Below are positions 1,790 to 13,539 of a stretch of DNA of 64,000 nucleotides, one piece after another. Every line of letters starts with the position of its first letter. Positions within the stretch are counted from its first letter, which is position 1. Under the pieces are notes generated by a model. It searched no databases and had not been told where the DNA came from. It saw nothing but the letters and a program-made list of their open reading frames with translations. The position numbers and the translations under genes are program-made. Location: positions 1,798,001 to 1,862,000 of the forward strand of contig NZ_CP059901.1 of the NCBI RefSeq assembly GCF_014127285.1, read 5' to 3'. The stretch is from Mumia sp. ZJ1417 (GTDB lineage: Bacteria > Actinomycetota > Actinomycetes > Propionibacteriales > Nocardioidaceae).

Positions 1790-2110
1790 TCAGCGCAGGC
1801 TCTCGGGCGACAGCTCCGCAGCGAGGACAGAGGCCTGGTAGGCCGTCAGGATGACCTCGGGAGTGCCCGGTCCGCCGGGAAAGACCAGCGCGAAGGTGGG
1901 CTCGCCGGTCTCAGGATCGACGCCGCTGAGGCTCAGGAAGACCTCCTCGCCGAACGACCGGCAGGGAGCGCCGACCTCGTGGGGTATCGCGCAGAACCGG
2001 ACGCAGGTCGGGTATGGCCAGTCAGGACCCGCGCTGCTCGGCGGAAGGTGCGCGGCGCGCTTGCCGTACGTGACCCCTCCCGGGCTCACGGTCGCAGGGT
2101 CGTCGCTCAT
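1790..2110 (-). CDS. Hypothetical protein, 106 aa
   Basis: A small acidic protein starting MSDDPATVSP at the ATG ending at 2110. It has three cysteines in the middle (CVRFCAIPHEVGAPC, about residues 36-50) and no signal peptide or membrane segment. I do not recognise a family. It lies divergent to the phosphotransferase gene downstream and convergent with the DUF2182 gene. The third-position G/C bias supports it being real. Confidence 0.5.
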   Translation of the reverse strand: MSDDPATVSPGGVTYGKRAAHLPPSSAGPDWPYPTCVRFCAIPHEVGAPCRSFGEEVFLSLSGVDPETGEPTFALVFPGGPGTPEVILTAYQASVLAAELSPESLR

Positions 2111-2192
2111 GCGGACCAGGATGGCGGTTGTCCGGGTCAGTGGTCCAGTGCGTGTGTCTCCAGTGGTGGATCATGCGGCCTACCATCGACCG

Positions 2193-3110
2193 GTGCCCCC
2201 GATGCCTGCCGCCGAGATCGACGTCACCGTGCCGCTCGTGCGAGGCCTCCTTGAGGCCCAGCATCCCGACCTCGCGGCCCTCCCGCTGAGGGTCGTCGCG
2301 AACGGCTGGGACAACGTGGTGCTGCGGCTCGGTGACACGCTGGCGCTCCGGATGCCGCGCCGTGCGCTCGCAGCCGCCCTCGTCCGCCACGAGCAGGAGT
2401 GGTTGCCGGTCCTCGCGCCGCACCTCCCGGCCCGCGTCCCCGCGCCCGTACGCACCGGGAAGCCGAGTGACGGCACCCGCGGGCCGGCGTACCCGTGGGC
2501 GTGGAGCATCGTGCCGTGGTTCCCCGGGCAGGCGGTGGGAGACCTGACCCTCGGCGAGCGCGGAGGACTGATGGAGCCGCTCGCCGCGTTCGTGGTCGCG
2601 CTGCACCGTCCGGCTCCTGCCGAGGCGCCCGCGAGCGCGTACCGGGGAGTGCCGCTCTCTGCGCGCGACGACGGCATGCGCGAACGGCTCGCGACCGGCC
2701 ACGTGCCGTACGCCGACGTGCTCCTCGCCCTCTGGGACCGGCTCCTGCCGACGCCGCCCTGGGACGGGCCCGCGCTGTGGGTCCACGGCGACCTGCACCC
2801 GGCGAACCTGCTGGCCGCGCCGTCCGCGGACGGGTCGCCCACGCTCTCCGCGGTGATCGACTTCGGCGACGTCACGTCCGGCGACCCCGCCAGTGACCTC
2901 GCGACGGCGTGGCTGACGTTCGGGCCGCGGGACCGGGCGGTGTTCCGCCGGCGCGTGTCGGAGGCAGGCTACGCCGACGACGCGACCTGGGACCGTGCTC
3001 TCGCATGGGCAGCGTTGTTCGGGACCCTGCTTGTCACCTCGTCCGACGATGCCCCGATGCTGCGCGCGATCGGCGAGCACACGCTCGCGCAGGTGCTCGC
3101 CGACGCCTGA
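2193..3110 (+). CDS. Aminoglycoside phosphotransferase (APH)-family kinase
   Basis: A small-molecule kinase of the APH/choline-kinase fold. The Brenner-type catalytic motif HGDLHPANLL is near residue 195, followed by the metal-binding IDFGDVTSGDPASDLA about 28 residues later. The N-terminal lobe shows GWDNVVLRLGD...ALRMPR, which supplies the nucleotide-binding lysine/arginine region. The start is taken as GTG 2193 or ATG 2202. The frame is open further upstream, but that part overlaps the divergent hypothetical gene and is not protein-like. Members phosphorylate aminoglycosides, macrolides or metabolites; the sequence does not say which, and resistance should not be assumed. Confidence 0.85.
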   Translation: MPPMPAAEIDVTVPLVRGLLEAQHPDLAALPLRVVANGWDNVVLRLGDTLALRMPRRALAAALVRHEQEWLPVLAPHLPARVPAPVRTGKPSDGTRGPAYPWAWSIVPWFPGQAVGDLTLGERGGLMEPLAAFVVALHRPAPAEAPASAYRGVPLSARDDGMRERLATGHVPYADVLLALWDRLLPTPPWDGPALWVHGDLHPANLLAAPSADGSPTLSAVIDFGDVTSGDPASDLATAWLTFGPRDRAVFRRRVSEAGYADDATWDRALAWAALFGTLLVTSSDDAPMLRAIGEHTLAQVLADA

Positions 3111-3191
3111 GCGCCCTCGACGTCGGCGGCGTCGACGTGGTCTGCTGTGAACCATCCGGCCCCCCAGGACGTGGTAGAGGGCGGAGGTGTC

Positions 3192-3701
3192 ATGTCCGAG
3201 AGCCCCGACGCGGTGATGGAGCGGCTCCACGACGCCCATGCGGAGGCGCTGTGGCGGTTCTGCCTGCGTCTGACCGGGTACGACCGGGCACGGTCGGAGG
3301 ATGTCGTCCAGGAGACCCTGCTCCGCGCCTGGCGTGCAGCGCCGACGCTCGAGCGCTCTCAGGGCTCGGTGCGCGCGTGGCTGTTCACCGTGGCGCGCAA
3401 CATCGTCATCGACGACTGGAGGGCGAGGAAAGTGCGAGGTGAGGTCGTCGTCGCGGACGTGCCCGACGCCGGCGAGTCGGATCGTACGGACCAGCTCTTG
3501 ACCTCCTGGATGGTCGCCGATGCGCTGACACAGCTGTCGGACGAGCACCGCGCCGTCCTTGTGGAGTGCTACTTCCGGGGCGCGTCGGTCGCCGATGCCG
3601 CCACGCGCCTCGGGGTGCCGACCGGGACCGTGAAGTCGCGCACGCACTACGCTCTGCGGGCCTTGCGCCTCGCGCTCGAAGAGAGAGGGGTGACGGCATG
3701 A
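3192..3701 (+). CDS. ECF-subfamily RNA polymerase sigma factor
   Basis: A 169-residue group 4 sigma factor. Region 2 runs from about residue 10 to 75 (ALWRFCLRLTG, SEDVVQETLLRAWR, VRAWLFTVARNIVIDDWRA). Region 4 runs from about residue 105 to 160 (LSDEHRAVLVECYFRG, VADAATRLGVPTGTVKSRTHYALRALR). The start at ATG 3192 is preferred because GGAGG lies just upstream; a longer in-frame start at 3147 is possible. The stop overlaps the ATG of the anti-sigma gene (ATGA), the usual arrangement for a sigma/anti-sigma pair. The pair resembles SigK/RskA-type systems, but the stimulus is unknown. Confidence 0.93.
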   Translation: MSESPDAVMERLHDAHAEALWRFCLRLTGYDRARSEDVVQETLLRAWRAAPTLERSQGSVRAWLFTVARNIVIDDWRARKVRGEVVVADVPDAGESDRTDQLLTSWMVADALTQLSDEHRAVLVECYFRGASVADAATRLGVPTGTVKSRTHYALRALRLALEERGVTA

Positions 3702-4438
3702 CGTGTCCCTACGAGCATCTCGACGGTGCGTACGTCCTGGGATCGCTGTCCACCGCGGACCGGCTCGAGTTTGAGAACCACCTCGCGGGGTGCGAGGCGT
3801 GCCAGCAGGCGGTCCAGGAGCTCGCCGGACTTCCCGGGCTGCTGTCGAAGGTGCCCGTCGACGTCTGGGACCCGCCCGAGACGGACGAGCCCTTGCCCGA
3901 GAGCCTGCGGCCGACCGTCCTGGCGCTCGCCGCACGGCAGCGGCAGCGGCGTCGGTGGGTGAGCGTCGGCATCGCCGCAGCCGCTGCGGTCGCGGTGGTG
4001 GCCGGCGGCTTCGCGGCCGGGGCGCAGTGGGGGAGCCGCGACGAGCCCGCTGCGCAGAACCCCCCGACGAGCCAGCCCACCACCGAGCCGACGAGCCAGC
4101 CCACCACCGAGCCGACGGGCACGCCGATGGTGCCGGCCGAGGAGGAGACCTCGATGACGGCGCAGCTCGCGCTGAGCACCGTCGCGTGGGGGACGAAGCT
4201 GGCGCTCACCTGCAGCTATCCGACGGCAGGACCGTACGAGGGCGAGTACGGCGGTGCGGCGACGTACGCACTGGTCGTCCTCACCCGCGACGGACAGGAA
4301 GAGCATGTGGCGACGTGGCGGGGGCTGCCGGGCAAGACGATGCACCTGACGGCAGCCACCGCGACGCCGCGTGCCGACATCGCGTCAGTGGAGGTGCGCG
4401 ACGCCGACGGATCCGCCGTGCTGCGTACCCCCGCGTGA
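3698..4438 (+). CDS. Membrane-anchored zinc anti-sigma factor (RskA-like)
   Basis: A 246-residue partner of the preceding sigma factor. The N-terminal cytoplasmic domain has the zinc anti-sigma signature HLAGCEACQ (H-x3-C-x2-C) near residue 30, after an upstream Cys/His pair (CPYEHLDGAYVLGSLS). One transmembrane helix follows at about residues 88-110 (GIAAAAAVAVVAGGFAAGA). Next come a Thr/Pro-rich linker made of a short repeat and an extracytoplasmic domain with the WGT...YALVV...TW..LPG pattern of RskA-type C-termini. In this family the inner domain holds the sigma factor until regulated proteolysis releases it. The last 54 bases overlap the convergent gene ending at 4385. Confidence 0.9.
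   Translation: MTCPYEHLDGAYVLGSLSTADRLEFENHLAGCEACQQAVQELAGLPGLLSKVPVDVWDPPETDEPLPESLRPTVLALAARQRQRRRWVSVGIAAAAAVAVVAGGFAAGAQWGSRDEPAAQNPPTSQPTTEPTSQPTTEPTGTPMVPAEEETSMTAQLALSTVAWGTKLALTCSYPTAGPYEGEYGGAATYALVVLTRDGQEEHVATWRGLPGKTMHLTAATATPRADIASVEVRDADGSAVLRTPA
4067..4114 (+). repeat. 24-bp perfect tandem repeat (two copies) in the anti-sigma linker
   Basis: The unit starting acgagccagcccaccacc is present twice in tandem (4067-4090 and 4091-4114). It encodes the TSQPTTEP repeat of the linker just outside the membrane helix. Because the unit is a multiple of three, slippage would change linker length without a frameshift. Confidence 0.95.
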
Positions 4439-4786
4439 GAGGTAGCCCTCGCGTGAGGCGGCGGCGACGGCGAGGATCACGGCGAGCACCTCGCTGATCG
4501 CGGCCACCCATGCGTACCAGCTCCAGCCGGTCTCGACGCCGAACAGGCCGACCGTCGCAGAGATCAGGAACGCCACGAGCGTCGCGAGGCCGAAGCCGGC
4601 GGTGAGGAACAGCGGGATCCAGTGCTTCCAGGTCACGAGCAGGACGGCGATCACGACACCGGCGACGACGTTGACGACGAACAGGCCGCCGACCGTCCCT
4701 TGGTCCTTGACGCCGTCCAGCCACAACCGCAGGTGGACGACTGCGGAGACGAGCACGGTGAGTGCTGCGACGATGCGAATGTTCAT
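4385..4786 (-). CDS. Small polytopic membrane protein, 133 aa
   Basis: It starts MNIRIVAALTVLVSAVVHLRL and has about four hydrophobic helices (roughly residues 5-22, 33-52, 56-78 and 86-106) with a short hydrophilic tail. The start ATG at 4786 overlaps the stop of the upstream fusion gene (ATGA) and has AAGGAA upstream, so it is translated with that gene. Similar small four-helix membrane proteins are common in actinobacteria and mostly uncharacterised. Its position suggests it assists the phosphatidyltransferase/sulfatase fusion; that is inference. Confidence 0.7.
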   Translation of the reverse strand: MNIRIVAALTVLVSAVVHLRLWLDGVKDQGTVGGLFVVNVVAGVVIAVLLVTWKHWIPLFLTAGFGLATLVAFLISATVGLFGVETGWSWYAWVAAISEVLAVILAVAAASREGYLSRGGTQHGGSVGVAHLH

Positions 4787-7128
4787 GACGGGTTCCTTCC
4801 CTCGAGGCTGAATGTTCTGAGGAACGTGTTGCGGAAGCGGTCCATCGGCCAGACGGGCGCGTCCGGAGCGGGGAGAAGCCCGGGCCGCCAGTCCCACCCC
4901 GTGATCGCGCGGAGGACCTGGGGGTCCTGCGCGATCACGGAGACCGGGACGTCGCGCCCGGGGTCGCGGCCGCTCACGGAGCGGTGCGGCTGGTGGTCCC
5001 CGAGAGCGATGACCACCAGATTCGGGTCGCGGTAGTGGTCCAGGTAGGAGACGAGCGCCTGCCAGCTGTAGACGATCGAGCGGCCGTAGAGCTCTCGGAC
5101 CCGGTCGGGATCACCGACGGCCTGGCGGGGTGACAGGCCCTGGGACGGCATGTCGTCGAAGACCGAGCCGTCGCCGACCTCGTCCCAGCCGACCATGCGG
5201 GGGAGCGGGGTCCACGGGTGGTGGCTGGAGACGAGATCGATCTCCGCCATCACCGGTCGGCGATCCTTGCCTGCCAGCTCGAGGCGGTGCAGCGCGGCGA
5301 GCACGTACTGGTCGGGCATCGTCGCATAGCTGAACGCGGGGCCGCGATAGCCCACGTCCGCTGCGCCGTACAGCCGGTCGACGCCGTAGAAGCGCGCGCC
5401 CTGCGGCCACGGCCGCGTCGTGGCAGGTGCGTCGAGCACCGTGCGCCATCCGGCGCGGCCGAACGCCGCGCTGAGCGTGAGGCGCCGCGTGCTCAACAGC
5501 TGGTCGTAGCGCTGCTGGCTGTCGACCCAGAGCCCGGACTGCATCGTGGCGTGGGCCAGCCAGCTCCCTCCGCCGAAGGTCGGCGAGGTGAGGTACGCGC
5601 TGCGCGTCGCATACCCGGCCGCCGTGAGGCGCTGTGTCCCCCGGACCAGCGCCGAGGACACCGCCGGCGAGAAGCGGGAGCCCTCGACGGCGACGCGGCC
5701 GTAGCTCTCGACGAAGACGAGGAGCACATCCTTGCCGCGCAGGGCGGTCAGCAGCCGGTCGGGTGGGACGTTCGCGTACGGATCGTGGCGGATCGCCGCA
5801 CCGAACGCCTTGCGGTCAGCGAGGTCCGCGCGCAGGCGCGTGACCTGGTCGTATGCGGCCGTGGTCGTCGAGGCGGTCGCGACACCGGCGCCGCCGGGGA
5901 TCCGCGCACCCGTCACGGTCGCGCCCACCCAGAGCAGCGCCATGAGCGCAGCGACACCGAGCGCCAGCGCTCGCCGTCCGCGGGCCACGCGGGCCAGGCG
6001 CAGCAGGCTCCACGGCAGCGTCACCGCGAGCGCGACGACGGCCAGCACGAGTGCGGCGACGGCGCCCACCGCCGCGGCTCTGCCGATCGAGTCCACGAGC
6101 ACGCCGAAGCCGGGCCCGAGGTAGTAGCCGTCGTTGAGCAGGTCGAACGGGCGGTCGAAGACGCCCCAGAACACCCCTTCGAGGACCTTGAGCAGGACCA
6201 CGACAGCGATCACGAGCCCAGCGCCGACCGCGGCTGCTCGGGCGGCGCGGGGCGGGACCAGCACCGCCAACCCCAGGAGCACCGCCCCCTCCAGCGGGAC
6301 GCGCAGCAGGCTCGAGGCAGACAGATCGGTCGCGCGGTCGGGAAGGACGAGCGCGGCCCAGACGACGAGGGCTGCCGCCGCCGTCGCTGCCGGTGCGACG
6401 ACTGCCGGCGCGGGACGGGCCGTACGACCGCGGGCGCGGTGCCGCCACAGCCAGCGCACCTGCCACCCGAACGACTCGGAGAGAAGAGCGAGCGCCGCGA
6501 CCAGCACGCCGAGCGCGACCGTACGGGGCAGCACTCCCGCGACGACGACGGTGAGGGCGACACCCTGGACAGCCGCCACGACCTTCGCCCACGGGCGTAC
6601 GGGGGTCGGCTCACGCAGCCAGGGGAGGACGGCCGCCGCGGCCAGCAGGAGGTAGCGCGCCGCCCCGATCACCAGGACCCAGGCAACGGACCAGCCGAGG
6701 GACCGGACGACGGCCACGCTCAGCACGAGGACGAGCAGCGCATCGACCTCCATGTCGAACCGGGCGCCGAGGGTGCTCACGGTGCCGGTACGGCGCGCGA
6801 CGCGGCCGTCGACGAGATCGAGCACGAGGGCGAGTGCCGCGAGGCTGACGAGAACGACGAGGGCGCGACCCCGCAGATCCGTACCGACGGCGAGCGCGGC
6901 CACCGCCACGGTGAGGACCGAGCGGGAGAGCGTGACCGCGTTCGCGGACCCGAACCGCCGCGTCCGCGTCCGTACGAGAGCGCGGCCCAGCAGGACGGCG
7001 ACCCCGACCGCCAGGACGCCGCCGCCGACCCAGCCCACCTCGCTGAGCCCGACCCGCAGGTCGAGCAGCACGACCATCAGCAGCGATGCGGTCAGGCCGA
7101 CCCACGGCCAACGTTGAACCTCCGGCAC
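4783..7128 (-). CDS. Fusion: CDP-alcohol phosphatidyltransferase + sulfatase/alkaline-phosphatase-superfamily membrane enzyme
   Basis: A 781-residue protein joining two enzymes usually encoded separately. Residues about 60-215 carry the complete CDP-alcohol phosphotransferase signature D-x2-D-G-x2-A-R-x8-G-x3-D-x3-D (D104, D107, G108, A111-R112, G121, D125, D129) within membrane helices. Further helices run to about residue 460. The C-terminal third is a periplasm-facing sulfatase-type domain: LLVFVESYGR (metal-binding Glu), SPTFGGGSWLAH (nucleophile Ser/Thr region), EIDLVSSHHPW and ALGDHQPH (metal ligands). LtaS- and Ept-type transferases have this architecture. The start is GTG 7128, directly after GGAGGAG; the longer ATG frame to 7356 runs through the divergent promoter region. 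Inferred role: making and then remodelling a phospho-lipid or phospho-glycan head group. Confidence 0.85.
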   Translation of the reverse strand: MPEVQRWPWVGLTASLLMVVLLDLRVGLSEVGWVGGGVLAVGVAVLLGRALVRTRTRRFGSANAVTLSRSVLTVAVAALAVGTDLRGRALVVLVSLAALALVLDLVDGRVARRTGTVSTLGARFDMEVDALLVLVLSVAVVRSLGWSVAWVLVIGAARYLLLAAAAVLPWLREPTPVRPWAKVVAAVQGVALTVVVAGVLPRTVALGVLVAALALLSESFGWQVRWLWRHRARGRTARPAPAVVAPAATAAAALVVWAALVLPDRATDLSASSLLRVPLEGAVLLGLAVLVPPRAARAAAVGAGLVIAVVVLLKVLEGVFWGVFDRPFDLLNDGYYLGPGFGVLVDSIGRAAAVGAVAALVLAVVALAVTLPWSLLRLARVARGRRALALGVAALMALLWVGATVTGARIPGGAGVATASTTTAAYDQVTRLRADLADRKAFGAAIRHDPYANVPPDRLLTALRGKDVLLVFVESYGRVAVEGSRFSPAVSSALVRGTQRLTAAGYATRSAYLTSPTFGGGSWLAHATMQSGLWVDSQQRYDQLLSTRRLTLSAAFGRAGWRTVLDAPATTRPWPQGARFYGVDRLYGAADVGYRGPAFSYATMPDQYVLAALHRLELAGKDRRPVMAEIDLVSSHHPWTPLPRMVGWDEVGDGSVFDDMPSQGLSPRQAVGDPDRVRELYGRSIVYSWQALVSYLDHYRDPNLVVIALGDHQPHRSVSGRDPGRDVPVSVIAQDPQVLRAITGWDWRPGLLPAPDAPVWPMDRFRNTFLRTFSLEGRNPS

Positions 7129-7225
7129 GGCTCCTCCGTGTTCCTCGGTACATGACCAGAAACGGTCGCGATGACGGATCGGTTCAATCGGGCGGTGTCC
7201 AGCAGGGCAAGGGAGGTTCCCTCCG

Positions 7226-8239
7226 GTGACGAAGCAGGCGCAGGCGTTCTGGGTGCGCAAGCCCGGTGTCGGAGAGCTGCGCGACGCCCGCCTGCGCGAG
7301 CCTGGAGCCGACGAGGTCCTCGTGCGTACGCTGCGCTCGGGCATCAGCCGGGGCACCGAGGCCTTGGTGTTCGGGGGACGGGTCCCGCCCGATCAGTACG
7401 CGACCATGCGCGCCCCCTTCCAGGAGGGCGAGCTCCCCGGCCCCGTGAAGTACGGCTACCTGAACGTCGGCGTCGTCGAGCGCGGGCCCAGCGAGCTGCA
7501 AGACCGGACGGTCTTCTGCCTGTACCCGCACCAGACCGCGTATGTCGCGCCCGCTGCGGCCGTCGCCGTCGTCCCCGAGGGCGTGCCGCCGCAGCGGGCC
7601 GTCCTCGCCGGGACGGTGGAGACGGCGGTGAACGCCCTCTGGGACGCGCGCCCGCTCATGGGGGACCGGATCGCTGTCGTGGGCGCCGGGATGGTCGGGT
7701 GCTGCGTCGCTCGACTCCTCGCCCGCATCCCGGGCGTCGAGGTCACGCTCGTCGACACCGTTGCGGACCGGGCGTCGACGGCCTCGGCGCTGGGAGCAGG
7801 GTTCGCGGCACCGGACGCGGCGGGCGGCGGGTACGACCTCGTCCTCCATGCGAGTGCCACCGCCGCTGGACTCCAGTGCGCTCTCGACCTCCTTGCGACG
7901 GACGGCACCGTCGTCGACCTCAGCTGGTACGGCGACACATCCGTCGAGCTGCGTCTCGGCGGCGCTTTCCACTCCCGACGGCTGAGCATCCGCTCCAGCC
8001 AGGTCGGAACGGTCTCACCCGCGCGCGCCCACCGGCGCTCGACGCAGGATCGTCTCCGCCTTGCCCTCGAGCTGCTGCACGACGACGCGTTCGACGTGCT
8101 GCTGACGGGCCGCTCGCGGTTCGAGGACTTGCCGGTGACGATGGCGCGCCTGGTCTCCGGGGCAGGCGCGCCGTTGTGCCACGTCATCGAGTACGCCAGC
8201 GTCGATCGCGCGAGCGTCGACCAGATCGGCGGCGCGTGA
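7226..8239 (+). CDS. MDR-family (zinc-type alcohol dehydrogenase-like) oxidoreductase
   Basis: A 337-residue medium-chain dehydrogenase/reductase. The N-terminal GroES-like part is followed by a Rossmann fold with [16 protein letters not shown] near residues 153-168 and an acidic residue after the second strand (LVDT) that favours NAD. The usual zinc-site cysteines and histidines are not evident, so it may act without zinc. The GTG start at 7226 has GGGAGG nine bases upstream. It opens a rightward operon in which every following junction overlaps by one to four bases. In related actinobacteria this dehydrogenase precedes a pterin-synthase homologue and a glycosyltransferase; its substrate has not been established to my knowledge. 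Confidence 0.85.
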
Positions 8240-8646
8240 TGTTCGCCGTGACGGTCAGTGACCACGTCATGGTCGCCCACAGCCTGCGCGGGGCGGTGTT
8301 CGGTCCCGCCCAGCGGCTGCACGGCGCGACCTATGTCGTCGAGGCGACCTTTCGTGCCGCGACGCTCGACGACGACGGGGTGGTCGTGGACCTCGGTCGT
8401 GCCGCCGAGGTGCTGCACGCGGCGCTCGCGGCGCTGAACTACCGCAACCTGGACGACGAGCCGGAGCTCGCCGGGACCAACACGACCACGGAGGTCCTGG
8501 CCCGGCTGCTCGCCGACCGGCTGGCGCTGCAGGTCGCGGACGGTGCGCTCGGCCGCCCCGGGGCGGACCTCGACGGGCTCGTCGTGACCCTGCGCGAGTC
8601 GCCGACCGCGTGGGCCACGTACGAGCGAGGGCTGGACGTGCCATGA
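8239..8646 (+). CDS. 6-pyruvoyl-tetrahydropterin synthase / QueD homologue with substituted active site
   Basis: 135 residues, the size and fold pattern of PTPS/6-carboxytetrahydropterin synthase. The first zinc histidine is kept (MVAH, H14), as are LHG (H28), NTTTEVLA around 81-88 and the C-terminal [10 protein letters not shown]. By alignment to E. coli QueD, the second histidine of HGH is alanine (A30), the catalytic cysteine position is alanine (A24), and the Asp-His pair of the LDH motif is Asn-Tyr (N67-Y68). The protein therefore probably cannot bind zinc or act like QueD/PTPS. It may bind a pterin-like molecule or catalyse something else. Its start shares a base with the previous stop (TGATG). 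Confidence 0.85.
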
Positions 8647-9665
8647 CCGTCGTCCACCTCGTCGTCCCCGACGGTATCGACGACCCGCACCGACCGAGCG
8701 GGGGGAACGTGTACGACCGTCGGCTGGCGGGCGCGCTCGAGGCCGGCGGGTGGTCGCTGCGCGAGCATCCGGTGCGAGCACCGCTCGGCGAGGTCCTCGC
8801 GTCGATCCCGGACGGGAGTCTCGTGCTCACCGACGGGCTCGTCACGCGGGGGGCCGGTGCCGTCGTCGGCGCGAACGCCAGCCGTCTGCACGTGGTGGTG
8901 CTGCTGCACGAGCCGATCGGGCCGGACGGCGACGAGCGCGCGGTGCTCGCGTCCGCTGCCGCCGTGGTGACGACGAGCCAGTGGACGGCCGACCGGATCA
9001 CCAACGTGTACGGACTCGCTCCCCAGCACCTCCACGTGGCGTGGCCGGGGGTCGACGAGTCGCTTGCGCATCGGGGGACGGAGGACGGGGGCCGCCTCCT
9101 GTGCGTCGGTGCGGTCTCGGCGGCCAAGGGCCAGCACGATCTCGTCGATGCGCTCGGGTCGTTGACGGACCTGGCGTGGGGGTGCCGCATGGTCGGCTCG
9201 CGGGATGTGGAGCCTCCGTACAGCCGAGCGGTCATGCGCCGCAGCGGCGAGCTCGGGCTCGGCGGGCGTGTGACCTGGACCGGACCGCTCAGAGGTGACC
9301 GGCTCGCCGCCGAGTACGCCTCCGCCGATCTGCTCGTCCTGCCCTCGCGCGCCGAGTCGTACGGGATGGTGGTCACCGAGGCGCTCGCCCGCGCGGTGCC
9401 GGTGGTCGCGGCTTCGGTCGGTGGCGTCGAGGAGGCACTCGGATGCACGGCGGACGGAGCGGCGCCGGGCCTGGTCGTCGACGCGGCCAACCCGGTGGCG
9501 CTCGCCCACGCACTCCGGAGCTGGCTGACCGACGTCGGCCTGCGCACGTGGCTGCGGCGGCACGCGCGGGCACGGCGGGACACGCTCTCGACGTGGGACG
9601 CGACCGCGGAGACCGTCTCCACCGTCCTCGAGGGCGTTCAGCGCCGAGGGGCGGTGCCGTCGTGA
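8643..9665 (+). CDS. Family 4 (GT-B fold) glycosyltransferase
   Basis: 340 residues. The C-terminal donor-binding half shows [20 protein letters not shown] and the E-x7-E type motif in [16 protein letters not shown], typical of GT4 retaining enzymes that use NDP-sugars. The N-terminal half starts [12 protein letters not shown] and includes [11 protein letters not shown], a glycine-rich acceptor-side loop. Start and stop overlap both neighbours (ATGA and GTGA). The acceptor is unknown. Context suggests a GTP-derived heterocycle or a lipid carrier. Confidence 0.88.
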
Positions 9666-10612
9666 GGCGGGCGGCGCTCATCCTCAAGCCCCTCGTCCCG
9701 GCGGCGGTCCTCGTCGTGGTCGTCGCCCACGTCGGTACGGTCCCTTTCCTCGACGGCTTCCGCGCCACGACGCAGTCGTCGGCGGCGCTTGCCGGGGTGT
9801 TCGCCGCGCTCGTCCTCACGGCGCTGAGCACGGTCTGCGCCGCGCGGCGCTGGCAGGTCGTGTCGCGTGAGCTCGGGGCCTCGATCCGTCTCAAGGACGC
9901 CGTGGTCGCGTACTACCGCTCCCAGATCCTCAACGTGACCCTTCCGCTCGGGGTCGCGGGCGACGTCCATCGAGGGCTCGTCCACGGCCGCGACACCGAC
10001 GACACCGCTCGTGGCCTTCGTACCGTCGCGTGGGAGCGGTTCGCGGGGCAGGCCGTGTGCGTCGTGGTCGCGGCCGGCGTGCTCGTGGCGGTGCCGTCCC
10101 CGCTGCGGTCGGCACTCGGGGCCGTACTCGTCGTCGGCGCAGCCGTCGTCTGTGCGGTGCTCGTGACTGCCGCGGCGGTCGTCGCCGTACTGCCCGGCTC
10201 CTGGCGCGGCGTCCTCGCCGGCGACGTACGCCGGGTGTTGCACCGTCCGTCGCCCACCGTGCAGCTCGTCGGGCTGTCGGTCCTCGCCTTCTGCGGGCAC
10301 GTGGCCGTCTTCCTCGTCGCCGTCCGGATCGCCGCGCCGCAGGTCGCCGCGACGGACGCGCTGCCGGCCGCCCTTCTCGTCCTGCTCGCCGCGTCCGTCC
10401 CGATGAGTCTCGCGGGTTGGGGTCCCCGCGAGGGCGTCGCCGCCTGGGCGTTCGCGGCGGGCGGGCTCGGCGCGAGCCAAGGGGTCGAGGTCTCCGTCGT
10501 ATACGGGCTGCTGGCGCTCGTCGCGACGGCTCCCGGGATCGCCGTCCTCCTCAGCGATGCACGCGGGCGGATCCGCCCGGGCCCTTCTCCGATGACGGGA
10601 GCGGTGCGATGA
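9662..10612 (+). CDS. Lysylphosphatidylglycerol-synthetase-type (UPF0104) membrane protein, flippase-like
   Basis: A 316-residue membrane protein with about eight hydrophobic segments. The block AYYRSQILNVTLPLGVAGDVHRG near residues 80-103 and the later VPMSLAGWGPREGVAAWAF match the transmembrane domain shared by lysylphosphatidylglycerol synthase N-termini and UPF0104 proteins. The family has been linked to lipid translocation. There is no aminoacyltransferase domain. The start is GTG 9662 inside the previous stop. With a glycosyltransferase upstream, moving a glycosylated lipid intermediate across the membrane is a plausible role (inference). Confidence 0.8.
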   Translation: MRRAALILKPLVPAAVLVVVVAHVGTVPFLDGFRATTQSSAALAGVFAALVLTALSTVCAARRWQVVSRELGASIRLKDAVVAYYRSQILNVTLPLGVAGDVHRGLVHGRDTDDTARGLRTVAWERFAGQAVCVVVAAGVLVAVPSPLRSALGAVLVVGAAVVCAVLVTAAAVVAVLPGSWRGVLAGDVRRVLHRPSPTVQLVGLSVLAFCGHVAVFLVAVRIAAPQVAATDALPAALLVLLAASVPMSLAGWGPREGVAAWAFAAGGLGASQGVEVSVVYGLLALVATAPGIAVLLSDARGRIRPGPSPMTGAVR

Positions 10613-11301
10613 ACGAGGTCCCGTACACGATCCTGTCGTGCGCAATCACGCTCGACGGCTACCTCGACGACGCAGGGGAGCACCCGCTGCACCTGTCCGG
10701 ACCGGCGGACGTGGACCGTGTCGACGGCATCCGCGCCGAGAGCGACGCGATCCTCGTCGGCGCGGCCACCGTACGCAACGACGACCCGCGCCTGCTCGTC
10801 CGCGCGCGGGAGAGGATCGACGGTCGCCGTCGACGGGGAGCCACCGACTCACCGAAGAAGGTCACCGTGAGCGGGCATGTCAAGCTCGATCCGGCCAGCG
10901 CGTTCTTCACCACCGGCGACGTCGAGAAGCTCGTCTACTGCCCGAGCCTGCGGGTCGACGAGGGACGCCAGGCGTTCGGCGACCTCGCCACCGTCGTCGA
11001 CGGCGGCGAACCGGTCACGATGCGCCACGTCGCGGAGGACCTGTACGAGCGGGGGGTGCGGCGGCTGATGGTCGAGGGCGGCGCGACCGTCCACACGCAG
11101 TTCCTCACCGAGGGGATCGCCGACGAGCTCCAGCTGGTCGTCGCCCCCTTCTTCCTCGGTGACCCACGGGCACGACGCTGGGTCGACGAAGGGGACTACC
11201 CCTGGGGCAACGAGCATCGTGCACGCCTGGTGGAGACGAGGACGCTCGACGACGTCGTGCTCGTCCGCTACGCCTTGTCCGAGCGGGGTGAGGCGGCGTG
11301 A
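10609..11301 (+). CDS. RibD C-terminal-type reductase (dihydrofolate-reductase fold)
   Basis: A 230-residue stand-alone reductase. TILSCAITLDGYLDD at the N-terminus, DAILVGAATVRNDDPRLLVR near residues 46-65, LMVEGGATVH near 147-156 and APFFLGDPRARR match the RibD C-terminal/pyrimidine-reductase family. That family reduces the ribosyl group of diaminopyrimidines derived from GTP, using NADPH. No deaminase domain is present. Its stop overlaps the GTG of the GTP cyclohydrolase II gene, so substrate maker and user are co-translated. That supports a shared GTP-derived pathway but does not prove it is riboflavin. Confidence 0.87.
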   Translation: MNEVPYTILSCAITLDGYLDDAGEHPLHLSGPADVDRVDGIRAESDAILVGAATVRNDDPRLLVRARERIDGRRRRGATDSPKKVTVSGHVKLDPASAFFTTGDVEKLVYCPSLRVDEGRQAFGDLATVVDGGEPVTMRHVAEDLYERGVRRLMVEGGATVHTQFLTEGIADELQLVVAPFFLGDPRARRWVDEGDYPWGNEHRARLVETRTLDDVVLVRYALSERGEAA

Positions 11302-11918
11302 GCGGCAGGCCCCCGCCCGCGGGCGTCCGCGCACGCGTCCCGGTCCCGCTGGCGCTCCCGGACGGCACGACCGTACGCGGCCGCCTGGTGACCTTCGAAG
11401 GCCTCGTCGACGGACGCGAGCACCTCGCCGTCGAGCTGGGTGACCCCGACCGCGAGCCACCTCTCGTACGCCTGCACAGCGAGTGCCTGACCGGCGACGT
11501 GCTCGGGAGCGAACGGTGCGACTGCGGCGCGCAGCTCGCGGAGGCGCTCGCGCAGATCTCCGCTGCCGGGGGAGTGCTGCTCTACCTGCGGCAGGAAGGC
11601 AGGGGGATCGGGCTCTACGCGAAGCTCGACGCGTACCTCCTGCAGGACGCCGGCCTCGACACGTACGACGCGAACGTCGCGCTGGGCTTCGGCGCGGACG
11701 AACGCGACTACACGGTCGCCGCGCAGATGCTCGGTGCGCTCGGTCGTACGTCCGTGCGCCTGCTGACCAACAACCCGGACAAGGCGGACCAGCTCGTACG
11801 GCTCGGGATCGACGTGGTCGCGTGCGTCCCGACCGGGGTGCACCGGCGAGACGCGAACGTGCGCTACCTCGAGGCGAAGGCCCGCCGCGCCGCGCACACG
11901 ATCGAGGTGGCCCGCTGA
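11298..11918 (+). CDS. ribA: GTP cyclohydrolase II (stand-alone RibA)
   Basis: 206 residues, the full length of a stand-alone GTP cyclohydrolase II. The zinc cysteines are in ECLTGDVLGSERCDCGAQL near residues 62-80, the GTP-binding YLRQEGRGIGL is near 95-105, and LLTNNPDK is near 153-160. The enzyme opens GTP to 2,5-diamino-6-ribosylamino-pyrimidinone phosphate with loss of formate and pyrophosphate. No DHBP synthase domain is fused, unlike the bifunctional RibBA common in actinobacterial riboflavin operons, and no ribE/ribH lies nearby. This copy therefore probably serves the surrounding specialised cluster. It is the last gene of the overlapping operon. Confidence 0.93.
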   Translation: MSGRPPPAGVRARVPVPLALPDGTTVRGRLVTFEGLVDGREHLAVELGDPDREPPLVRLHSECLTGDVLGSERCDCGAQLAEALAQISAAGGVLLYLRQEGRGIGLYAKLDAYLLQDAGLDTYDANVALGFGADERDYTVAAQMLGALGRTSVRLLTNNPDKADQLVRLGIDVVACVPTGVHRRDANVRYLEAKARRAAHTIEVAR

Positions 11919-11976
11919 CGCGGGTGGGCGTGCAATCCCCGCCCGTACGGGCGGCTGCGTCGCTACGGTTCGCGGC

Positions 11977-13539
11977 ATGCGACGCGTCGTGGTTCTCGCC
12001 AGCTCGGTAGCCGTCCTGCTCGGCGGCATCTCGGCCCCGGCCGAGGCCGCTGCGGTCCTGCCGACCGGGTTCACCCTCGTCTCCGGCAGCGTGGGTGCCT
12101 CGTACGACTCCACGACGCTGACGCTGACCCAGACGTCCGCGACCGCGATCGTGCACGTCCAAGCCGGCGACGTCGGCGCCGGGAACACCCTGCGCATCAC
12201 GCAGCCGTCGGCCGACAGCCGGCTGCTCCTCAGGGTCGTGGGCAACGCCGTCTCCGCCGTCGCCGGTGCGATCGAGGCCGACGGGCAGCTCGTGCTGGTC
12301 AACCCTTCGGGGATCGTTCTCGCGAGGGGGGCGTCCGTTCGGGCTGGCGGCGTCGTCCTGAGCAGCATGGACGCGCCGAATGTGCAGTTCCTCGCGGGCG
12401 CGCCGACGTTCGCCACGGGCACAGCGACGGGGCCGGTCACGAACCAGGGCCAGGTCGAGAGCCGCGGCATCGCAGCGATGCTCGGATCCTCGACCGTGAC
12501 GAACGATGGACAGGTCGTCGCGCCCGACGGCACCATCGGGTTGGTGTCGTCGAGCAGCGTCGGTGTGACCCTGACGGCGCGCGGGGCCGACGCGATCACC
12601 CCTGCGCCGTCGGCAGGAGCCCTGCCGGAGGGCACGGCGCGCAACACGGGCGTCCTCGACGCGCGCCGCGGCGTCGTTCGCCTGCACAGCGATCGTGCCT
12701 CCGCAGCGACCGCGTCAGCCGGTGTCGTCCTCGCCGCCGACAGCGCGCTCACCGTTCACAGCCTCCGCGTCGACGGCGTCGAGCTCGGTGCGCTTCGCGT
12801 GTCGTGCGCGCTCGGCGGAACGCTGCGGGCCGGCGTGACGATGAACGGGATCCCGCGGGGGCCAGGTGCCGTGACGTCGATCGGAGGTGTCTCCCACACC
12901 TACCGCACGGCGACGGGCGCATTCGACGCCCAGAAGGTCCTGTCCGTCTCGCCGCTGCTGCCGCCGGGCGCCTCGTACGGACCCGGGTCGACGTCCTGCT
13001 CGGCAGGCGTGCTGAACGCGCCGATCCTGCGGGTTGCGGGGACGCCGGCGGTCGGCCGACGGCTGTCGGTCACGGGACGCTGGGGGCCGGTCCCGGTTCG
13101 GCTCGCCTACCAGTGGTTGCGCGACGGTGCGGTGCTTCCTGGCGTGACCGGCGCGACGTACGTGCCCCGCGCATCGGACCGGGGTCATCGCCTCAGCGTG
13201 CGCGTCACTGGCAGCCGCGCGGGCTACGAGACGGCCACGCGGACGAGCAACGCTGTGAGGATCGCCGCCGGAATGCTGACGGCACCGCGTCCCCAGGTCG
13301 CCGGCAAGGGCAAGGTCGGGCGGCGACTCACCGCGAAGGCAGGCCATTGGGGACCGGGCACGGTGACGCTGCGTTACCGCTGGTTCCGTGATGGTGATCC
13401 GATCAGGCGCGCCACGAAGCGTCACTACCGCGTGAAGAAGGCGGACGCGGGCCACCGCCTCACCGTCCGCGTGACCGGCGCGAAGACCGGGTACGGCACC
13501 GCCGTACGGAAGAGCCGAGCCGTCCGGATCACGCGGTAG
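11977..13539 (+). CDS. Secreted protein: filamentous-haemagglutinin (TPS-like) N-domain plus two Ig-like repeats
   Basis: 520 residues with a clear signal peptide (MRRVVVLASSVAVLLGG...APAEAAA, about 25 residues). Residues about 60-200 resemble the haemagglutination-activity/TPS domain: LLLRVVGNAVSAVAGAIEA, then DGQLVLVNPSGIVLARGA with the NPxGI signature, then GGVVLSSMD. A bridging region of about 130 residues is followed by two repeats (about 348-430 and 435-519). Each repeat contains VGRRLxxxxGxWGP, a YQWLRDG/YRWFRDG strand and a D-x-GHRLxVRVTG turn, as in many actinobacterial secreted proteins. No LPXTG or membrane anchor is seen. TPS domains are classically Gram-negative two-partner secretion exoproteins, so their presence here is unusual. 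Confidence 0.8.
   Translation: MRRVVVLASSVAVLLGGISAPAEAAAVLPTGFTLVSGSVGASYDSTTLTLTQTSATAIVHVQAGDVGAGNTLRITQPSADSRLLLRVVGNAVSAVAGAIEADGQLVLVNPSGIVLARGASVRAGGVVLSSMDAPNVQFLAGAPTFATGTATGPVTNQGQVESRGIAAMLGSSTVTNDGQVVAPDGTIGLVSSSSVGVTLTARGADAITPAPSAGALPEGTARNTGVLDARRGVVRLHSDRASAATASAGVVLAADSALTVHSLRVDGVELGALRVSCALGGTLRAGVTMNGIPRGPGAVTSIGGVSHTYRTATGAFDAQKVLSVSPLLPPGASYGPGSTSCSAGVLNAPILRVAGTPAVGRRLSVTGRWGPVPVRLAYQWLRDGAVLPGVTGATYVPRASDRGHRLSVRVTGSRAGYETATRTSNAVRIAAGMLTAPRPQVAGKGKVGRRLTAKAGHWGPGTVTLRYRWFRDGDPIRRATKRHYRVKKADAGHRLTVRVTGAKTGYGTAVRKSRAVRITR

Follow-up and report, generated by a model that had tools for sequence, protein, structure and literature searches.

Introduction

PTPS-type proteins are sorted by short motifs, with CxxxHGH, CxxxxxHGH, and ExxHGH marking PTPS-I, PTPS-II, and PTPS-III, respectively (PMC5445326). 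The PTPS-IV class carries the signature FGPAQ. Its genomic neighborhood was described as AGeNNT cluster-node 62, and the section of that paper devoted to the node names RibD_C (PF01872) and GTP cyclohydrolase II (PF00925, labeled FolE2 there) as the only neighbors and gives no product; a split into two forms, a creatininase, a methyltransferase, a GT4 glycosyltransferase, and CDP-alcohol genes are not mentioned in that section (PMC5445326). An excerpt of a review of paralogues names PTPS-IV merely as a class (PMC5041015). Here, we report a computational analysis of a PTPS-IV locus of eight genes from Mumia sp. ZJ1417, found at positions 4385–11918 of a 64,000-nucleotide stretch (the window; NZ_CP059901.1, 1,798,001–1,862,000, on a sequence of 4.19 Mb).

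Work by Spoonamore from 2006 is said to have found that the position of Tyr105 in Escherichia coli GTP cyclohydrolase II (GCH II, RibA) decides whether the enzyme halts at the formylated FAPy nucleotide. We take Cys54, Cys65, and Cys67 of this enzyme to be its zinc Cys residues and Tyr105 its switch, with Asp126 and Arg128 presumably functional as well. SCO6655 of Streptomyces coelicolor has Met instead of Tyr at a switch residue and reportedly yields FAPy for that reason. An extract of one report that cites the 2006 work describes altered GCH II activities in Streptomyces (PMC3509567). BrbF of Sinorhizobium meliloti, a member of the creatininase family, deformylates the FAPy nucleotide in riboflavin synthesis, where its partner cyclohydrolase is not known according to the excerpted account (PMC9478397).

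Results

We picked 168 loci by their PTPS gene: the window plus the best 80 of the 173 loci matched by the window PTPS (sample 1, 81 loci) and 87 further loci (sample 2). An anchor gene was counted when tblastn matched it at E ≤ 1e-5 no more than 12 kb from the PTPS gene, a criterion that could also admit unrelated glycosyltransferases or methyltransferases in the vicinity. Because the samples are the best matches to the window PTPS, close kin are over-represented, and because contig ends shorten some loci, counts of absence are upper bounds. One sample-2 genome (G055) also appears as the truncated locus L008. Genes beyond the anchors were called with a simple GC-based caller, which missed many creatininases that tblastn recovered.

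An MDR-family oxidoreductase is present in 167/168 loci (81/81 in sample 1 and 86/87 in sample 2) and a GT4 glycosyltransferase in 165/168 (81/81, 84/87). A preliminary description of the window had offered co-conservation of the eight locus genes across actinobacteria as a check. MDR, PTPS, and GT4 do occur together in nearly all loci, beyond chance, and the set is thus conserved elsewhere; the eight genes as a fixed set are not, as order and membership vary. A UPF0104 membrane protein is found in 130 loci (74/81, 56/87), a CDP-alcohol transferase in 129 (74/81, 55/87), a methyltransferase in 126 (74/81, 52/87), RibA in 118 (67/81, 51/87), a creatininase in 84 (52/81, 32/87), RibD in 69 (21/81, 48/87), the sulfatase-like part in 38 (14/81, 24/87), and the small membrane protein of the window in seven. 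Frequently, the CDP-alcohol gene is divergent from an MDR-PTPS-GT4-methyltransferase-UPF0104 series that is followed by creatininase and RibA or by RibA and RibD. Loci of the Actinomadura type have RibA and the CDP-alcohol gene upstream on the same strand. Although most relatives carry a methyltransferase, tblastn gave no match to one at the window locus, a difference that is likewise new here.

The relatives split into two forms according to the RibA switch residue, a division that is new here. The stand-alone GCH II of the window (11298–11918, + strand; PF00925, 191 bits) retains Cys54, Cys65, Cys67, Tyr105, Asp126, and Arg128 (E. coli numbering; CCCYDR). Alignment allowed 117 of the 118 RibA proteins to be classed, L030 belonging to neither class (degenerate GCHII domain, motif not found). 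The three Cys residues, Asp126, and Arg128 are invariant in 117/117, while position 105 is occupied by Met (56), Tyr (32), His (20), Leu (6), Gln (2), or Cys (1). A creatininase-family gene lies in the stretch in 84 of the 85 loci whose RibA has lost the Tyr, and the remaining locus, L185, has its copy ~13 kb from PTPS. Among the 32 Tyr-kept loci, window included, tblastn detected no creatininase in any stretch. The counts were 52/52 Tyr-lost and 0/14 Tyr-kept in sample 1, and 32/33 and 0/18 in sample 2, which was scored after the rule had been seen in sample 1 and in which 48/51 RibA proteins are <97% identical to sample 1 (3/51 are copies at ≥97%). None of the 168 loci has a creatininase without RibA. 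GCH II domains outside the locus keep the Tyr in all 24 that could be read, with 6 of the 30 loci with an outside GCH II yielding no motif. By eye, the GCHII half of the GCHII-RibD fusion of L030 (Pseudonocardia bannensis) keeps the Cys positions, but the switch Tyr is replaced by Ser and Arg128 by His; this half is probably inactive.

Genome-wide searches of seven Tyr-kept genomes found no close copy of the creatininase, and in four of the seven nothing at E ≤ 1e-10; all six Tyr-lost genomes checked gave matches at E ≤ 6.8e-81. The family motifs E.HG and HAGE.ETS are each present in 81/84 locus creatininases. The likeness to BrbF, which deformylates the FAPy nucleotide (PMC9478397), is one of family. 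Given this precedent and the strict pairing with RibA, we infer that the creatininase is the missing FAPy deformylase of the Tyr-lost loci. The window locus contains no BrbF-type gene. Its PTPS aligns with SCO6650 of S. coelicolor, but its RibA keeps the Tyr and so belongs to the other form than SCO6655; unlike the SCO6650/SCO6655 system, it is also without a methyltransferase and a creatininase.

The window PTPS (8239–8646, +; PF01242, 86 bits) carries FGPAQ at residues 21–25, and both PTPS-IV neighbors, PF00925 and PF01872, are present at the locus. The conservation alignment used 156 of the 173 sequences; in its 147 main-branch rows F, G, P, and A are conserved to 100% and Q to 97%, and the second His of the HGH motif is replaced by Ala in 99%. 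The PTPS/QueD enzyme motif (Cys or Glu plus HGH) is absent from the window protein. On inspection, HGA replaces HGH, the motif has no Cys, and NY stands where kin have DH, in agreement with the earlier view of this protein as active-site-less. We take these positions to have catalytic and zinc-binding roles, and the protein would then be without its catalytic Cys and have an altered zinc site. SCO6650 (PDB 3d7j) is the sole PDB sequence match at E ≤ 1e-3 (E 6e-50, 132 residues aligned). A deep branch of 22 loci (L128–L149, PTPS 36–47% identical) shows the order RibD-MDR-PTPS-GT4, and its PTPS reads HGH in the six rows aligned. A divergent gene of a single cluster accompanies 21 of these 22 loci; the one tested is FolB by Pfam (123 bits), which could belong either to the pathway or to ordinary folate synthesis.

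The reductase (10609–11301, +; PF01872, 131 bits) is a stand-alone RibD_C protein without a deaminase domain. Its best NCBIfam model, TIGR01508, scores 124.5 bits against a cut-off of 186.45, short of assignment as a diaminopyrimidine reductase; its nearest solved structures include the diaminopyrimidine reductase 6p8c, and the stand-alone enzymes of that type are likewise without a deaminase. The deaminase motif is absent from all 69 locus RibD open reading frames (ORFs) and present in the canonical RibD of the window genome. Families and comparison thus back the earlier proposal of GTP entry through GCH II and a deaminase-free reductase. An unlinked RibD homologue was found in 12/12 genomes checked that have no in-locus RibD (nine Tyr-lost, three without locus RibA), in 0/3 genomes with a divergent in-locus RibD (E ≤ 1e-18), and in 0/4 same-genus genomes without the locus.

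The GT4 glycosyltransferase (8643–9665, +) matches PF00534/PF13692 (GT4, 88 bits), and the UPF0104/LPG_synthase_TM membrane protein (9662–10612, +) matches PF03706 at 70 bits. On the − strand, 4783–7128 encodes a CDP-alcohol phosphatidyltransferase (PF01066, 54 bits) fused to a membrane-anchored sulfatase-like domain. The motif DxxDGxxARx8Gx3Dx3D is intact in the window protein and in 127/129 locus ORFs. The sulfatase-like half has no Pfam match, a stand-alone homologue in L030 gives a sub-threshold PF00884 score (20 vs 25 bits), and a predicted model of residues 201–781 has a mean predicted local distance difference test score (pLDDT) of 85. The two parts are separate genes in, for example, L030, L035, and L043; 15 loci, that of the window among them, have both in a single ORF. 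RibA and RibD share an ORF in six loci, as do GT4 and the methyltransferase in L193 and, by Pfam (GT4 + methyltransferase), in L131; GT4 ORFs exceed 560 aa in 6 of 17 deep-branch loci. Such shared ORFs hint at shared substrates. From these gene families and fusions, the product may be glycosylated, membrane-directed, or lipid-linked.

The MDR protein (7226–8239, +) is BchC-like (TIGR01202, 5.6e-14, under its cut-off); its Pfam ADH_zinc_N score is 27.6 bits vs a cut-off of 31.8, and kin exist in NCBIfam and the PDB. The small membrane protein (4385–4786, −; 133 aa) has no family match in Pfam or NCBIfam and has tblastn matches at E ≤ 1e-3 in six other loci. An ORF check recovered all eight genes of the preliminary description at the positions it gave. 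The tight coupling it reported was likewise seen: MDR and PTPS overlap by one base at 8239, and 4-base overlaps join PTPS/GT4, GT4/UPF0104, UPF0104/RibD, and RibD/RibA as well as the leftward fusion and small-protein genes. The divergent gap of 97 bases spans 7129–7225, provided that the two GTG starts chosen (7128 and 7226) hold; the GC-based gene caller places the fusion-gene start at 7077 instead. A consensus scan of 4300–12000 found no sigma-70-like promoter and no terminator.

An ECF sigma factor (3147–3701, +; Pfam Sigma70_r2/r4) and a zf-HC2 anti-sigma factor (3698–4438, +; PF13490, scanned as the longer frame 3566–4438) adjoin the left edge of the locus and are absent from the earlier gene list. 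A sigma orthologue of at least 64% identity lies within ~6 kb of PTPS in 7/9 same-family genomes with the locus and in 0/28 without it, the best there reaching 61%. Anti-sigma homologues adjoin the locus in six relatives, and sigma and anti-sigma genes recur next to it in varying orientation. This pair, whose link with the locus is also new here, probably controls it in the window's family.

We next consider riboflavin. A second GCH II domain and a DHBP synthase domain (RibBA) occupy a single long frame at 1,905,219–1,906,322, adjoined by RibH and by a RibD with deaminase and reductase domains. These genes lie ~93 kb from the locus, outside the window, and begin ~105 kb past window base 1. As the preliminary description held, there is no further riboflavin gene at the locus: by Pfam, none of its genes is a deaminase, RibH, or RibE, the last not having been searched genome-wide. 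The locus genes are not the organism's only riboflavin genes and, judged by gene content, the locus is not this genome's riboflavin synthesis. GCH II matches in 34 sample genomes number at least two in 23 and one in 11. A third GCH II copy in one genome (G185:C1:5057618-5059497) adjoins an unlinked stand-alone RibD, a possible separate supply pair.

The distribution is patchy. Of 58 relatives, 12 have a strong match to the PTPS at E ≤ 1e-40 and 14 have one at 1e-3; at E ≤ 1e-15, PTPS is found in 32/396 genomes of the phylum and 57/394 of the class (window genome included in each count). Two of six same-genus genomes, again including the window's, have the locus. The core also occurs on two proteobacterial plasmids, which is new here. 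A plasmid of the gammaproteobacterium Thiodictyon carries MDR-PTPS-GT4-methyltransferase, cytochrome b, RibD, and the CDP-alcohol gene, together with a sulfatase-like stretch outside the listed gene table, and a Neorhizobium plasmid carries MDR-PTPS-glycosyltransferase-methyltransferase. A publicly annotated Streptomyces fungicidicus plasmid has the creatininase form. Three further Streptomyces plasmid stretches (L227, L229, L230) have PTPS-IV without other anchors, beside cupin, MBL-fold, sigma factor, and BTAD regulator genes, which constitutes a second context.

Finally, we note the genes around the locus. A TPS secretion domain protein (11977–13539) lies immediately 3′ of it and has no match in L003–L098 (L002 being the window's own copy). 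At 41–1776, there is a tyrosinase-like protein whose gene overlaps by 4 bases that of the next one, a protein of the PpoB2 copper chaperone family. An APH-family phosphotransferase (1851–3110) has a 71% identical match on the opposite side of the locus in the same-genus L109.

Discussion

We consider it somewhat probable that the locus is a dedicated pathway drawing on GTP, with the following steps. By strong family membership, RibA would open GTP to 2,5-diamino-6-ribosylamino-4(3H)-pyrimidinone 5′-phosphate (DARoPP). The Tyr-kept RibA of the window would deformylate unaided; in the sister form, the Tyr-lost RibA would stop at the formylated FAPy nucleotide and the creatininase-family hydrolase would deformylate it, as suggested by the pairing and by BrbF. 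Again by family, the stand-alone RibD_C protein would then reduce the ribosyl to a ribityl group with no deamination. During the MDR oxidoreductase step, the PTPS-IV T-fold protein may hold the pyrimidine or a pterin derived from it, and condensation to a pteridine is possible. GT4 would add a sugar and, in most relatives though not in the window, the methyltransferase may act on the same molecule. At the membrane, placement or modification of the product may fall to the UPF0104 protein, the CDP-alcohol phosphotransferase, and the sulfatase-like domain. In the window's family, this pathway is probably under the control of the ECF sigma/anti-sigma pair.

Several observations weigh against this proposal, and we take them together with the rival explanations. 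The creatininase could serve a different reaction, perhaps on a downstream amide, and Tyr loss in its loci could be a lineage accident. Consistent with this, the RibA tree accounts for Tyr loss by a single change, and the large locus counts are therefore not independent evidence for the pairing, a use of them that we dropped; a Fisher value computed for it takes no account of relatedness. The MDR+PTPS tree gives three changes for each trait with L185 corrected, and four for the creatininase without that correction. Supported branches force at least two of the changes, and with a total this small a sign test has no prospect of significance. MftE is the model that the creatininases match best (148.1 bits, cut-off 172, best of four proteins), with 38.8 bits against archaeal ArfB (cut-off 180, best of four proteins), and three of the seven Tyr-kept genomes have distant creatininase kin elsewhere (39–41% identity). 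Independent recruitment of RibA in two forms, which a free tree suggested, was also set aside, as a single clade withstood an approximately unbiased (AU) test (p 0.615). Against an accident of lineage, a Pseudonocardia clade (support 96) mixes four rows of Tyr-lost RibA with creatininase and three of Tyr-kept GCHII-RibD fusions without it, and residue 105 varies within the Tyr-lost clade among Met, His, Leu, Gln, and Cys, never Tyr, while the other five positions stay fixed. We regard the accident as unlikely, if credible.

Alternatively, RibA and RibD could be mere feeders or passengers, the true unit being MDR-PTPS-GT4-methyltransferase, which would build a glycoconjugate on a base not derived from GTP or drawn from another pterin pathway. 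RibA is missing in 50/168 stretches, some shortened by contig ends, and L126, L192, and L195 have matches to neither RibA nor RibD. The Thiodictyon plasmid stretch gives no RibA match and that of Neorhizobium neither a RibA nor a RibD match; the PTPS-IV genes without other anchors on the three Streptomyces plasmid stretches point the same way. Against the dedicated pathway itself, RibD lies in just 10/85 Tyr-lost loci, and an unlinked homologue occurs in 7/46 relatives without the locus and 11/12 with it (58 relatives), so that an initial view of this homologue as exclusive to locus-bearing genomes weakened to one of enrichment. Against a passenger role, RibD stays with MDR-PTPS in 22/22 deep-branch loci and in Thiodictyon, and the strict RibA/creatininase pairing falls within the locus. 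Such a role seems distinctly unlikely to us.

Still less probable is a diffusible GTP-derived specialized metabolite, toxoflavin-like or lumazine-like, with the membrane genes serving export or self-protection. Toxoflavin synthesis likewise starts with a GCH II and a RibD-type enzyme, and the presence of the locus in two of six same-genus genomes would fit such a product. The CDP-alcohol phosphotransferase motif, intact in all but two ORFs, instead suggests lipid chemistry. A second, back-up riboflavin supply is very improbable: the GCH II and reductase are riboflavin-type, and 3 of the 34 genomes have no GCH II besides that of the locus (3/11 single-copy genomes: G045, G632, G682), which may serve riboflavin there too, but the window genome has its separate RibD, RibBA, and RibH, no deaminase, RibH, or RibE is among the locus genes, and neither PTPS-IV nor a glycosyltransferase is known to act in riboflavin synthesis.

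Under the dedicated GTP pathway, one reading of wider scope can be put forward tentatively, as a possibility rather than a probability. In actinobacteria and some proteobacteria, the loci may make a new class of pyrimidine or pteridine, derived from GTP through borrowed riboflavin steps, directed to the membrane, glycosylated, and in most cases methylated. The first step would come in two interchangeable designs, either a GCH II that deformylates by itself or a switched GCH II with a creatininase-type deformylase.

In the open-licence literature searched we found no product for the locus, in keeping with the preliminary description, and no RibA/creatininase pairing; the primary SCO6650 and SCO6655 papers lie outside that coverage, and we claim no priority. 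The structure of SCO6650 has been solved and the reported FAPy product of SCO6655 is puzzling; the literature searched gave a pathway for neither. The pairing proposes an enzyme that would use FAPy, a single residue would predict the product of each RibA, and attention narrows to a small set of genes. If the proposal is true, a new class of GTP-derived metabolites would be opened to discovery.

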